64,000 nt of DNA from Deltaproteobacteria bacterium (GTDB taxonomy: Bacteria; Myxococcota; Myxococcia; Myxococcales; SZAS-1). Numbering within the stretch: position 1 is the first letter of the stretch; each line of letters begins with the position of its first letter. Shown in pieces: positions 38,357 to 44,936 of this stretch. The position numbers and the translations under genes are program-made. The notes below the pieces were generated by a model. That model did not search any database, was not told the origin of the DNA, and was given only the letters and a program-made list of their open reading frames with translations. The stretch lies in the NCBI GenBank assembly GCA_018266075.1, contig JAFEBB010000007.1, positions 62,001-126,000 on the forward strand, given 5' to 3'.

Positions 38357-38833
38357 ATGGACGCCATCGAGTACCTCACCCGCCAGCACCGGCACATCGA
38401 ATCGCTCTTCGACGAGCTCCAGCGCGGTCGCCCGCTCGAGCCGCTCGAGCTCGCCGACGTGTTCGCGCGCATCGCCGACGCCGTGGCGCTGCACTGCGAG
38501 CTCGAGGAGGAGCACCTCTACCCGCACGCCCGCGGCATCCGCCCCGAGGCCGAGCAGGCCGACGCGCTCACCGAGCACCAGGAGCTGAAGGAGAAGCTGG
38601 CCGACCTGTTGCAGATCGAGCCTGTCGACCCCGGGTTCGGGCCGCGGCTCCTGGCCTTGCGGGATCTGGTCGAGCTGCACGTCGAAGAGGAAGAGAGCGA
38701 GCTGTTTCCAGAGCTGGAGCGCGTGTTGCCCGAAGCGCTGCGGCTCGATTTGGGGCTGGCGATGGCGGCCGTGGCGCGCGAGCGGGGCGCCGCGGTGGAG
38801 GGCGAGGTGACGCCCGGCCTCGAGCCGGGTTGA
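38357..38833 (+). CDS. Hemerythrin-domain protein
   Basis: Predicted 158-residue protein. The four-helix iron-binding pattern is visible: RQHRHIESLFDEL, HCELEEEHLYPH, TEHQELKEKL and LHVEEEESELFP. The ordered His and acidic ligands are those of hemerythrin HHE domains, which bind a di-iron centre and sense or carry oxygen or protect against iron/NO stress. It is cytoplasmic. Divergent from Ku across 137 bp; downstream is the response regulator-KaiB gene. A shared redox or stress role is only suggested by position. Confidence 0.9.
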   Translation: MDAIEYLTRQHRHIESLFDELQRGRPLEPLELADVFARIADAVALHCELEEEHLYPHARGIRPEAEQADALTEHQELKEKLADLLQIEPVDPGFGPRLLALRDLVELHVEEEESELFPELERVLPEALRLDLGLAMAAVARERGAAVEGEVTPGLEPG

Positions 38834-39054: not shown

Positions 39055-39759
39055 ATGGCCATGGACACCACCTCGCGCCTCAGCATCCTCTACGTCGAGG
39101 ACGAGCCCGACATCCGCGAGACGCTCGCGGAGATCCTGCAGCTGCACGACTACGAGGTCGTGTCGGTGGAGAGCTCCGAGGCGGCCATGGCCGAGCTGCG
39201 GCGCGGCGGCTTCGATCTCCTCCTCACGGACTACAACCTGCCCGGGCAGAGCGGCGGCTGGCTCATCGAAGAAGGTCAGCAGCTGGGGCTCCTGCAGGGC
39301 ACGGCGGTGCTGGTGGTGACCGCACATCCCACGCCGCGCATGGCGCCCGACGTGGTGGTGATGCGCAAGCCGCTCGACATCGATCACTTCCTGCGCCAGG
39401 TGCACGAGCTGCTCGAGCCGGCAGCGGAGGCCCGCGCGCTCTCGAAGGGTGGGGCGCCGGTGCGTGCCACGCCGGTGGACCTGGTGCTCTACGTGAGCCC
39501 GGACTCGCCCGCGTCGCTGCGCGCGCTGCGCAACCTGCACGCGCTGCTGGAGCGGTTCCCCGGGCTGCCGGTGAAGCTCACGGTGCGGAACCTCGCCGAG
39601 AGCGGCGCGGAGCCGGAAGGCGATCAGGTCGCGTTTGCGCCCACGCTGGTTCGACGCGGACCGGGGCCGCGCGCATGGATCCTGGGCACGCTCGACGACG
39701 TGCAGCCGGTGCTGGATCTGCTGCGCGTCGAAGGGTTGGCGCCGGCAGCGGTCGGCTAG
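39055..39759 (+). CDS. Response regulator receiver fused to KaiB domain
   Basis: Predicted 234-residue fusion. Residues about 9-125 are a receiver domain with the acidic pair in YVEDEPD, phosphoacceptor Asp59 in LLTDYNLPG, TAHP and Lys105 in MRKPLD. Residues about 141-228 match KaiB: LYVSPDSPASLRALRNLHALLE, FAPTLVRRGPGPRAWILG, then TLDDVQPVLDLL. KaiB is the thioredoxin-like clock component that binds KaiC; fusion to a receiver would couple it to a histidine kinase. No kaiC gene is present here. An upstream ATG (38929) has a strong GGGAGGG but its extension has non-coding codon use, so 39055 or 39061 is preferred. Confidence 0.9.
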   Translation: MAMDTTSRLSILYVEDEPDIRETLAEILQLHDYEVVSVESSEAAMAELRRGGFDLLLTDYNLPGQSGGWLIEEGQQLGLLQGTAVLVVTAHPTPRMAPDVVVMRKPLDIDHFLRQVHELLEPAAEARALSKGGAPVRATPVDLVLYVSPDSPASLRALRNLHALLERFPGLPVKLTVRNLAESGAEPEGDQVAFAPTLVRRGPGPRAWILGTLDDVQPVLDLLRVEGLAPAAVG

Positions 39760-39894: not shown

Positions 39895-39922
39895 TTGACC
39901 GACCTGAACGCATGTTCATAAA
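39895..39922 (+). promoter_or_regulatory. LexA-repressed promoter of imuA
   Basis: TTGACC (39895-39900) is followed after 16-17 bases by CATAAAT at 39917-39923, with a LexA-type box GAACGCATGTTC (39906-39917) filling the spacer. LexA bound there would block RNA polymerase. The imuB promoter repeats this arrangement. Confidence 0.75.
39906..39917. promoter_or_regulatory. SOS (LexA) box of imuA
   Basis: GAACGCATGTTC is a perfect GAAC-N4-GTTC palindrome, the type recognised by LexA proteins outside the Gammaproteobacteria. Confidence 0.75.
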
Positions 39923-39942
39923 TGAGGCTCCGGAGGTTCTCG

Positions 39943-40755
39943 GTGCCATCGGAGCTGGGCGCACTGCTGCTGGAGCTTCGCGGCCACGGGCTGCTGGGCG
40001 CGGAGGAGCTGCGCCAGCGCCGGCCCACCCGCGCCAGCACCGGCTTCGCTGCCCTCGACGCGCTCCTCGGCGGCGGCTTGCCCCAGGGCCGGGTCATCGA
40101 GCTGGCCGGCAACGCGACCTCGGCCGCGACGGCCATCGCCATCCGCCTGCTTGCGCGCTGGACCACCGAGGGCTGGCCGTGCGCGCTCGTGGACCGGCCG
40201 TTCAACTTCGACCCGCGCAGCGCTTCGGAGGCCGGCGTCGAGCTCTCGCGGCTGCTCTGGTGCCGGCCCAACCAGCTCGCCCACGCCGCCCGCGCCGCCG
40301 ACGTCGTGCTCGGCTCCGGCGCGTTTCCCCTCGTGGTGCTCGACCTGGTGCCGCCGCCTGCGCCGCCCGGTCCGCGCAAGCGCGAGCGGCTCCTGGCCGA
40401 AGGCGCGTGGGTGCGGCTGGCGCGGCGGGCCGAGGCGTCGCGGGCCACGCTCGTGGTGCTCTCCGACGGCCGCGGGGGACCGGGCGCGATGGCCGCCGCG
40501 ACGCTGCAGCCGGTGAAGCAGCGCGCGCGCTTCCTGGGCCAGGGCCCGGGCCGGACGTTCGAAGGGCTCTCCATCACCATCAGTCTCCAGCGCAACAAGC
40601 TGGGGCTGCCGCCGGGAACGGCCGAGCTGGAGCTGGGCGCGCCCGCGCACTTTCCCGCGCGCGTGGAGCCGGCGCCTGTGCTCGCGCCTGTCGCCGAGCC
40701 GACGGCCGCGGCGGCCCGAGTGACCGCGCGGCGACGCCGGGGGCGCGGACGCTGA
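39943..40755 (+). CDS. imuA: ImuA, RecA-like mutagenesis protein
   Basis: Predicted 270-residue RecA/SulA-related protein of the ImuA family. Residues about 30-60 read RRPTRASTGFAALDALLGGGLPQGRVIELAG, the degenerate start of a RecA-like fold with an incomplete Walker A. The central part has LVVLDLV, resembling Walker B. The C-terminal 60 residues are Pro/Ala-rich and Arg-ended. ImuA works with ImuB and DnaE2 in SOS-induced translesion synthesis. Start GTG 39943 is preferred because GGAGG lies at 39932-39936 and the promoter -10 overlaps the alternative ATG 39922. imuB follows after 352 bases with its own SOS promoter; dnaE2 is not in this window. Confidence 0.85.
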   Translation: MPSELGALLLELRGHGLLGAEELRQRRPTRASTGFAALDALLGGGLPQGRVIELAGNATSAATAIAIRLLARWTTEGWPCALVDRPFNFDPRSASEAGVELSRLLWCRPNQLAHAARAADVVLGSGAFPLVVLDLVPPPAPPGPRKRERLLAEGAWVRLARRAEASRATLVVLSDGRGGPGAMAAATLQPVKQRARFLGQGPGRTFEGLSITISLQRNKLGLPPGTAELELGAPAHFPARVEPAPVLAPVAEPTAAAARVTARRRRGRGR

Positions 40756-41022: not shown

Positions 41023-41047
41023 CCGACCTGAACGGATGTTCATAGAT
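41019..41047 (+). promoter_or_regulatory. LexA-repressed promoter of imuB
   Basis: TTGACC (41019-41024), then CATAGAT (41041-41047) after a 16-17 base spacer, with SOS box GAACGGATGTTC inside it. The 26-base block starting at TTGACC is identical to the imuA promoter except for one base in the box centre. Confidence 0.75.
41030..41041. promoter_or_regulatory. SOS (LexA) box of imuB
   Basis: GAACGGATGTTC is GAAC-N4-GTTC with a central GGAT, versus GCAT in the imuA copy. Confidence 0.75.
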
Positions 41048-42722: not shown

Positions 42723-44936
42723 ATGGACGAGGCCAGCAAGCTCGAAGCACAGGGGAGCCTGGACCAGGCGCTCGCGGCCTACGTGCGCGAGCAGCAGTGG
42801 CCGCAGGCTGCCCGGCTCGCGGTCCGCCTCGATCGCCCTGGCGAAGCGGGCCGCTTCTGGCTCCAGGCCGGCCAGCCCTACGACGCCGCCGTCTGCTTCC
42901 AGCGCGCGTCCATGCTCAAGGAGTGCCTCGACGCGCTCCTCCTCGTTCCGAACACCGAGCCCCGCTACCGCGCCGCGTGCGTGCACGCCATCCGGCTCAC
43001 GGTCTCGCTGGGCGAGCCGATGGATCGGCTGGGCTCGTTCTTGATGTCGTTCGCCAACACGCCTCCGGCCTCACCGGTGGAGGCCGCGGCGCTGAACCAG
43101 GTGGCGCAGCTCTACGCCGAAGGGCAGGCCTTCAGCCTGGCCGCAGCCATCTATCGGCGCGTGCTGGCGTCGTACCCGGCCGACGCGGACGCGCGCGAGG
43201 GCCTCGCCGCTCTCCCCCCGGGCAACGAGCCGAGCGACGCCGCTTCCAACGCGCGCCCCAGCTCCAACCCGGCGCGGCCGATGAGCAACCCGGCCGCGGT
43301 GCAGCGGCCCAGCACCAGCACCAGCGGGTCGCGTCCGGCGCTCACCGTCGATGGCCGACGCCCGCAGACCATGTCCGGCCGCAAGCGCCTGGGAGAGATC
43401 CTCCTCGCGCGCGGCAAGGTGACCCAGGAGAACCTCGACCGGGTACTCAAGACCCAAAAGGACGCGAGCAGCAACGACATCCTCCTCGGCGAGGCGCTGG
43501 TGGCCCACGGCCTCCTCACCGACGTGGAGGTGGTGAAGGCGCTCTCCGAGCAGTCGGGGATCCCGTACATCGGCGAAGGCCGGCTGCTGAACCAGACCAG
43601 CCCTGAGGCGCTGAAGCTCCTCACCCTCGAGCAGGTGGAGAAGTACCTGGTGATGCCGGTGGCCATCGTGGACAAGAAGCTCTACCTGGCCATGAAGAAC
43701 CCGGCCGACTTCACGCTCCTCGATCAGCTCCGCTTCGCCACGGGCATGAAGCACCTCTCGGGCATCTACGCCACCGAGGGCTCCATCCGGAAGGGCATCG
43801 CCAAGTTCTACAAAGGCGAGTTCGTCTTCGAGTCCGACGACTGGCGCGGCAAGGTCTACGAGCCGGGCTCGGGTGAGTCGGCGCCGTTCTCGGATCGCGT
43901 CACCCGCACCCGCGAGCGCGAGTTCGACACCACGGAGATGGAGAAGAAGGCGCTCCTGGAGGCTGCGGGTCAGCTCCCGGTCTCGCCCACGCCCGTGCCT
44001 GCGGTGCCCGCCGTGAACACCAACCCGTCCCTTGCCGCAGCGCCCACGGCCGCGCCGGGCATGACCATGGACATGCCCCGCAAGCTGCTCGCCGGCGGCA
44101 CGCCCGAGGTGGGCCAGACCATTGCGGAGCGCTACCGCATCGACGCGAAGCTGGGCGAGGGCGGCTCGGCCATGGTCTTCAAGGTCATGGACCTGGAGCT
44201 CAACGAGCCCGTGGCCATCAAGCTGTTCCGGCCGTCGCTGCAGACCGACGCGCTGGTGGCGCGCTTCAAGCTGGAGCTCTCGCTCTCGCGGCAGCTCAAC
44301 CACCCCAACATCGTGCGGCTCTTCGACATGGGCCAGCACGAGGGCTGGCGCTACATCACCCTGGAGCTCCTCGACGGCGAGGACGTGGCCACCGTGCTCA
44401 AGAAGTTCCCCAGGGGGCTGCCGCTGCAGGTGGGCATCAACATCCTGGAGCAGGCCGCGAGCGGACTGCAGGCCGCGCACGACCGCGGCGTCATCCACCG
44501 CGACGTGAAGCCGCAGAACCTCTTCGTCACCCGCGACGGCAGCGTGAAGGTGATGGACTTCGGCATCGCCAAGAAGGAGCACACCCCCGGCGTGACCGTG
44601 GAAGGGATGATGGCCGGCACGCCGGAGTTCATGTCGCCCGAGCAGATCAACGGCTTCTCCACCGTCGGCATCCAGACCGATCTCTACTCGCTGGGCGCCA
44701 CCGCCTACGCCATGTTCACGGGCACGCCGCCGTTCGAGAGCGCCAAGCTCATGGACATCCTCATGGCGCACATGAACACCCCGCCGCCGCCGCCGCGCGG
44801 ACGCAACCCCGACCTGCCGGCCGAGCTCGAGGCCATCATCCTCAAGCTGCTGGAGAAGGACCCGGCGCAGCGCCTGCAGAGCTGCCGCGAGCTGGTCGCC
44901 GCCGTGCAGCAGCTGCGCGTGCGCCTGACCGCCTGA
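42723..44936 (+). CDS. Ser/Thr kinase with MshEN (GspE N-terminal) domain
   Basis: Predicted 737-residue protein with an unusual order. Residues 1-160 are TPR-like helical repeats (GSLDQALAAYV, QPYDAAVCFQRA, AFSLAAAIYRRVL). A Ser/Pro linker leads to a MshEN domain (about 222-300): RLGEILLARGKVTQENLDRVLKTQ and LGEALVAHGLLTDVEVVKALSEQ, the two motifs that bind c-di-GMP in MshE-type ATPases. A second linker precedes a C-terminal Hanks-type kinase (about 469-735) with LGEGGSAMVF, AIKLF, HRDVKPQN (Asp594), DFGIAK and the ending MSPEQ. The protein is cytoplasmic, with no membrane span, so kinase activity could be tuned by c-di-GMP; this is inference. Confidence 0.9.
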   Translation: MDEASKLEAQGSLDQALAAYVREQQWPQAARLAVRLDRPGEAGRFWLQAGQPYDAAVCFQRASMLKECLDALLLVPNTEPRYRAACVHAIRLTVSLGEPMDRLGSFLMSFANTPPASPVEAAALNQVAQLYAEGQAFSLAAAIYRRVLASYPADADAREGLAALPPGNEPSDAASNARPSSNPARPMSNPAAVQRPSTSTSGSRPALTVDGRRPQTMSGRKRLGEILLARGKVTQENLDRVLKTQKDASSNDILLGEALVAHGLLTDVEVVKALSEQSGIPYIGEGRLLNQTSPEALKLLTLEQVEKYLVMPVAIVDKKLYLAMKNPADFTLLDQLRFATGMKHLSGIYATEGSIRKGIAKFYKGEFVFESDDWRGKVYEPGSGESAPFSDRVTRTREREFDTTEMEKKALLEAAGQLPVSPTPVPAVPAVNTNPSLAAAPTAAPGMTMDMPRKLLAGGTPEVGQTIAERYRIDAKLGEGGSAMVFKVMDLELNEPVAIKLFRPSLQTDALVARFKLELSLSRQLNHPNIVRLFDMGQHEGWRYITLELLDGEDVATVLKKFPRGLPLQVGINILEQAASGLQAAHDRGVIHRDVKPQNLFVTRDGSVKVMDFGIAKKEHTPGVTVEGMMAGTPEFMSPEQINGFSTVGIQTDLYSLGATAYAMFTGTPPFESAKLMDILMAHMNTPPPPPRGRNPDLPAELEAIILKLLEKDPAQRLQSCRELVAAVQQLRVRLTA

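Follow-up and report, generated by a model that had tools for sequence, protein, structure and literature searches.

The window, that is, the whole stretch of 64,000 nucleotides of Myxococcota DNA analyzed here, encodes an intact fusion of a receiver domain to a KaiB domain (RR-KaiB), and this fusion is a family, not a one-off. All other copies that we found are coupled to a kaiC gene, no KaiC is found in the assembly to which the window belongs, and the fusions carry distinctive residues at two positions that determine the fold state of KaiB. With moderate confidence in the account as a whole, we infer a KaiB part that is held in one fold and gated by phosphorylation of the receiver, with KaiC as the target in the relatives and another partner in the window genome.

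A response regulator with a KaiB output domain

The fusion gene is one continuous open frame of 234 aa (Table 1), and a frameshift separating its two halves, one of the findings that would have undone the original prediction, is absent. That prediction described an intact receiver with Asp59 and Lys105, and both residues are in place. Pfam (hmmscan) assigns residues 11 to 100 to Response_reg (PF00072; E = 1.6e-14, 54.5 bits versus a cutoff of 30.2), and the signature residues of a response regulator are complete, with the acidic pair E15/D16, the Asp (D59), the Thr/Ser (T89), and the Lys (K105). D16, D59, T89, and K105 are unchanged across the eight aligned fusions (alignment A1). Pfam found the receiver and KaiB only, with no histidine kinase domain at the C terminus as in SasA, and a scan of genome contigs with the whole fusion protein matched receivers alone.

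The second half of the protein is a KaiB domain, as had been proposed. Residues 145 to 224 belong to PF07689 (E = 6.9e-9, 35.7 bits versus a cutoff of 27), the top matches of this half in a PDB sequence search are KaiB chains (5jwo, E = 2e-7), and it is 42 to 52% identical to the KaiB domains of the seven full-length coupled fusions. Furthermore, the fusion-family profile from A1 aligns the window protein over positions 4 to 240 of 242. The scores stay well below the cutoffs of the clock-KaiB equivalogs (25.0 versus 145.3 for TIGR02654; 25.4 versus 110 for NF006798). The KaiB motifs quoted in the original prediction are all in the sequence, but its LDLL does not correspond to the GLDLL of canonical KaiB: when the two proteins are aligned without gaps, LDLL falls one turn before that motif (V-L-D-L-L versus Te V-L-I-A/G-L), so that the canonical G89 is Leu and the canonical D91 is Arg in the window protein.

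Table 1 Features of the RR-KaiB gene and its surroundings, in window coordinates
Feature	Position	Strand	Basis
Hemerythrin-domain protein, upstream neighbor	38357..38833	+	PF01814, E = 1.6e-14
RR-KaiB fusion gene, 234 aa	39055..39759	+	Single open frame, both domains above Pfam cutoffs
Receiver domain, ~residues 8-122	39076..39420	+	PF00072
D59 codon, predicted phosphorylation site	39229..39231	+	Invariant column in fusion alignment A1
Linker	39421..39477	+	Ala/Gly/Pro-rich and shorter; longer and charged in the 5 closest-aligned relatives (alignment A1)
KaiB domain, ~residues 142-226	39478..39732	+	PF07689, KaiB PDB matches, identity to coupled fusions
R206, equivalent to R. sphaeroides KaiB position 68, fold-switch determinant	39670..39672	+	Alignment; PMC10808063
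D221, equivalent to R. sphaeroides KaiB position 83, fold-switch determinant	39715..39717	+	Alignment; PMC10808063
LexA-type box GAACGCATGTTC, between fusion and imuA	39906..39917	.	Exact GAAC-N4-GTTC match
ImuA-like RecA-fold ATPase, next gene downstream, candidate target	39922..40755	+	PF00154, E = 5.6e-16

A small RR-KaiB family in Myxococcota

A profile search with PF07689 across ~195 Myxococcota genomes gave a KaiB match in 18 of them and a receiver-KaiB fusion in 9, window included. Besides the window, the carriers are seven genomes of one family of large genomes (L114 to L120) and a draft genome of another family (L125), in which the fusion frame is split by a linker frameshift that is either genuine or an assembly error. 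A profile built from eight fusions recovers the same nine in Myxococcota and no more. We found no fusion spanning both domains in four further phyla (395, 398, 355, and 352 genomes sampled; ~1,500), and plasmid records returned receiver-type matches only, with no record reaching 80% query coverage.

In a tree that also includes 13 canonical myxobacterial KaiBs and 4 solved KaiBs, the fusion KaiB domains group in a single clade (support, 100/99), separate from canonical KaiB. The window KaiB is sister to the L125 (G044) copy (97/87) and has the longest branch of the clade (0.97 versus 0.27 for its sister). With respect to the receivers, those of the window and L125 group with a stand-alone response regulator of the large-genome family (96/93), the receiver of which is 42.6 to 48.7% identical to that of the window, and this suggests that the fusion receiver may derive from such a regulator. 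Single-domain response regulators of this stand-alone kind are encoded by ORFs of ~120 to 140 aa in the six large-genome-family genomes examined for them (L199 to L204) and are the closest receivers to that of the window that we found. In other Myxococcota, KaiA3-like receiver genes precede kaiB, but a test for a chimeric origin of the fusion from such genes gave no support, their receivers lying far from those of the fusions in the tree. Such receiver proteins are found directly 5' of kaiB in L123 (6555-7970, +), L124 (6694-7965, +), L126, and L129; by eye, their C-terminal region resembles the KaiA-like module of KaiA3, with a weak RsbU_N match in L129 only (E = 0.047).

The fusion is coupled to kaiC in the relatives

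In all eight other copies, the stop codon of the fusion overlaps the start codon of kaiC by 4 nt (ATGA), an overlap that the window copy lacks. The seven full-length relatives have a complete two-domain kaiC after the fusion, and L125 shows the ATGA overlap followed by a KaiC-like start (MNLIEKHRTGVPGL), after which the frame breaks near the contig end. The seven uncut KaiCs carry two ATPase domains with pairs of Walker A motifs and catalytic Glu residues, as well as the Ser/Thr phosphosite in CII, where LSTI matches ISTI in the alignment, and are without an A-loop or C-terminal tail; the one that was scanned passes the NCBIfam KaiC cutoff (428 bits versus 408). The coupling in eight of eight copies is strong evidence for a functional RR-KaiB/KaiC pair. 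By the established biochemistry of KaiC, a copy lacking the A-loop would no longer depend on KaiA, and since the coupled KaiCs are without this tail, the RR-KaiB/KaiC pair would operate without KaiA. The suggestion that a phosphorylatable KaiB would put a KaiC-type ATPase under the control of a histidine kinase is thus strongly supported in the eight related genomes, but not in the window genome, where no KaiC was found.

KaiC is missing from the window assembly

The original prediction reported no KaiC in the window and placed its partner elsewhere or took the domain to be repurposed. The absence extends to the whole assembly (7.84 Mb, 166 contigs, 96.57% complete), where neither the PF06745 profile nor a KaiC protein query found a KaiC. 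The best matches of these searches are RadA, two RecA proteins, DnaB, ATP synthase alpha (identified by us from its sequence), and ImuA. A partner KaiC elsewhere in the genome is therefore contradicted over these 7.84 Mb, repurposing (or a lost partner) is the branch that survives, and the window fusion probably controls something other than KaiC.

A partner kaiC might instead have escaped the assembly, within a gap or on a separate replicon, in which case the window would hold one half of an ordinary RR-KaiB/KaiC pair whose genes have become separated. The number of contigs and the completeness leave room for this, and strong KaiC matches occur in every other KaiB-bearing member of the Myxococcota searched, with several in most. 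However, the fusion is far from the ends of its 181-kb contig and has no kaiC adjacent, and none of the many kaiC paralogues of the relatives is present, so that a single gap would need to conceal every one of them, which makes this explanation improbable. In other genomes searched, we also observe long open frames of 746 to 786 codons with three KaiC ATPase matches each (G086:C56; G084:C1:3.42 Mb; G088:C1:0.447 Mb; G089:C1:10.18 Mb), which occur beside the usual two-domain KaiCs.

At the site of the relatives' kaiC start, the window has no gene start. The neighbors had been described as a hemerythrin gene and SOS genes, and we likewise find Ku and hemerythrin genes, together with a gene pair for an ImuA-like protein and a Y-family polymerase that carries exact GAAC-N4-GTTC boxes. 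The second exact box (41030-41041) lies at the imuB-like start, and this gene makes up a two-gene SOS mutagenesis locus with the imuA-like gene. Further downstream (42723-44936, +) is a Ser/Thr protein kinase with an MshEN domain before the kinase domain, an unusual pairing.

The KaiB domain could serve this SOS locus by binding ImuA (or RecA), such that a kinase would tune mutagenic repair. The CI domain of KaiC is itself a RecA-type ATPase; imuA is the gene directly next to the fusion, and its product has a RecA fold, with a match to the ImuA model (E = 3.4e-13) that is below the curated cutoff and a weak one to the KaiC profile PF06745 (E = 9e-4) that is also below cutoff. The usual binding site of KaiB on KaiC is this CI domain (PMC6378743). 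Against this, imuA starts 162 bp after the fusion with a LexA-type box in between, so that the two genes are probably not cotranscribed, the imuA neighborhood is seen in no fusion-bearing relative, and proximity by itself is weak. A role in SOS mutagenesis is in our view a long shot, with ImuA a possible target by position and fold only.

The KaiB part is most likely locked in the KaiC-binding fold

KaiB is among the best-studied metamorphic proteins. Wayment-Steele and colleagues reported that Arg68 is enriched among KaiB sequences predicted to be fold-switched, and that in a triple mutant of R. sphaeroides KaiB, which combines I68R and V83D with a substitution of N84, NMR shows the population flipped to the fold-switched form (PMC10808063). 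With position numbering anchored on I68, V83, and N84 of R. sphaeroides KaiB, R68 and D83 are found in eight of eight aligned fusions and K68 with D83 in L125, while the combination of Arg or Lys at 68 with Asp at 83 occurs in none of the 13 canonical myxobacterial KaiBs. The third determinant, position 84, is Leu in the fusions, not Arg or Ala. The residues at 68 and 83 reflect a single shared ancestry and hence count as one event, not nine. Fold-switching of the KaiB part, as the original prediction implied, is probably wrong, since the fusion clade carries substitutions that favor the fold-switched state (PMC10808063).

Structure prediction points the same way at low confidence. The single-sequence AF2 model of the window KaiB domain has the fold-switched order (beta-alpha-beta-alpha-beta-beta-alpha) with a mean pLDDT of 59, and in a Foldseek search with this model, fold-switched KaiB (5jyt, 5jwo), L. 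pneumophila KaiB, and the SasA N-domain outrank ground-state KaiB. Much of the switching half has a pLDDT below 50, so the modeled fold is suggestive only, and the prediction for the full-length fusion (mean pLDDT, 47.5) is too poor for use. The residues at 68 and 83 and the low-confidence model thus point to the fold-switched form only, and the KaiB part is most likely locked in the thioredoxin-like, KaiC-binding fold. In the KaiC-KaiB-kinase clusters of L121, where the kinase is a PAS hybrid kinase, and of L122, KaiB is also charged at 68/83 (R/R and A/R), a possible second fold-locked group.

The fold matches of the AF2 model include the SasA N-domain and thioredoxins, which would also fit a KaiB-type thioredoxin fold that serves for docking in general and does not target an ATPase. 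We think this very doubtful: eight of eight coupled relatives pair the fusion with KaiC, and the SasA domain itself binds KaiC (PMC6378743).

A phosphorylation-gated KaiB and its fate after loss of KaiC

Fold-switched KaiB attaches to the CI ring of KaiC by its C-terminal half and touches the CikA pseudo-receiver with strand beta-2 (PMC6378743), and in R. sphaeroides the ATPase runs faster when KaiB is bound (PMC10076222). In the mechanism that we propose, the window protein would be a response regulator with a KaiB output domain, from a small Myxococcota family otherwise made with a dedicated KaiC. Its KaiB part would stay permanently in the fold-switched, thioredoxin-like form that binds the CI ring, and a fast gate would substitute for the slow fold switch of canonical KaiB, with receiver phosphorylation rather than fold-switching doing the gating. 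A histidine kinase would phosphorylate D59, upon which the KaiB face would be exposed or repositioned, or the protein would dimerize, and this would set the amount of RR-KaiB bound to its ATPase target. In the relatives, this target would be the co-encoded KaiC, with both ATPase sites and the CII phosphosite kept and the A-loop tail lost; in the window genome, KaiC would be gone and the intact fusion would act on a different, probably RecA-fold, partner.

The window copy has itself changed. Residues common to the seven full-length coupled copies are altered (D179N, P184G, E189G, T195A), and the K58 position, which is Lys in canonical KaiB and Arg or His in the relatives, is Gln. These changes fit a changed partner or relaxed constraint, and with these residues lost, the window copy may no longer bind anything KaiC-like. 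The gene might then be a relic, jobless since the loss of kaiC and heading for decay, with the intact frame reflecting a recent loss; the missing KaiC partner, the longest branch of the clade, and the altered residues would all fit. Yet its 234 codons are open although its KaiB domain is just 42 to 52% identical to those of the other full-length copies, every residue that is invariant in the receiver and the KaiB core is retained, and relative-rate counts against the nearest relative show a mild, mostly nonsignificant acceleration (KaiB chi2, 1.0 to 4.3) with a similar excess in the receiver. Acceleration specific to KaiB in the orphan copy is weak on the same counts. We consider decay unlikely. 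A bolder reading, to which we give a fairly low probability, is that a fold-frozen, phospho-switched KaiB has survived the loss of its KaiC and has come to control another RecA-fold ATPase, a clock component turned ordinary two-component output.

Relation to known Kai systems

KaiBC modules are already known, as are Kai-associated proteins that incorporate kinase or receiver domains (SasA, CikA, KaiA3). The fusion shares the core motifs LYV...S...ALR and PTLV..P.P...G.L with the KaiB of KaiBC systems (R. sphaeroides, T. elongatus, S. elongatus), and as in those systems the relatives of the window gene adjoin kaiC. Unlike those KaiBs, it sits behind a receiver predicted to be phosphorylatable, has R68/D83, lacks G89/D91, and has no KaiC in the window assembly. 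The fold-switched KaiB-TV4 (8ubh) and L. pneumophila KaiB (4kun) have a polar residue at 83, as the fusion does, and 8ubh is the top PDB match for the KaiB domain of one coupled fusion; both were solved as KaiB domains alone, whereas the fusion adds an N-terminal receiver.

SasA likewise joins a KaiC-binding thioredoxin-like domain to a two-component module, but this module is a histidine kinase, whereas the fusion has a receiver, the reversed domain order, and a KaiB-type rather than SasA-type sequence. KaiA3 (a receiver and a KaiA-like domain, upstream of kaiB3) also places a receiver within a Kai component ahead of kaiC, but its output is KaiA-like, and the KaiA3-like myxobacterial receivers are not close to those of the fusions in the tree. 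In CikA, a receiver fold contacts fold-switched KaiB as well, but as a pseudo-receiver that binds as a separate protein. KaiA3 has been reported outside cyanobacteria in five genera, none myxobacterial (PMC11372060), and a 2024 survey of myxobacterial kai genes states that few have kaiB and says nothing further on kaiB (PMC11832031). In the open-licence literature searched, we found no description of the receiver-KaiB fusion, either coupled to an A-loop-less KaiC or as a KaiC-less survivor.

The fusion family bears on why some KaiBs switch fold and others do not. Fixed residues at the fold-switch positions combined with a phosphorylatable-type receiver make it a natural test of whether a signal can replace the slow switch, and the relatives offer compact RR-KaiB/KaiC gene pairs suited to in vitro reconstitution. 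A genome apparently without KaiC, such as that of the window, lets one ask what role KaiB has once the clock ATPase is gone.
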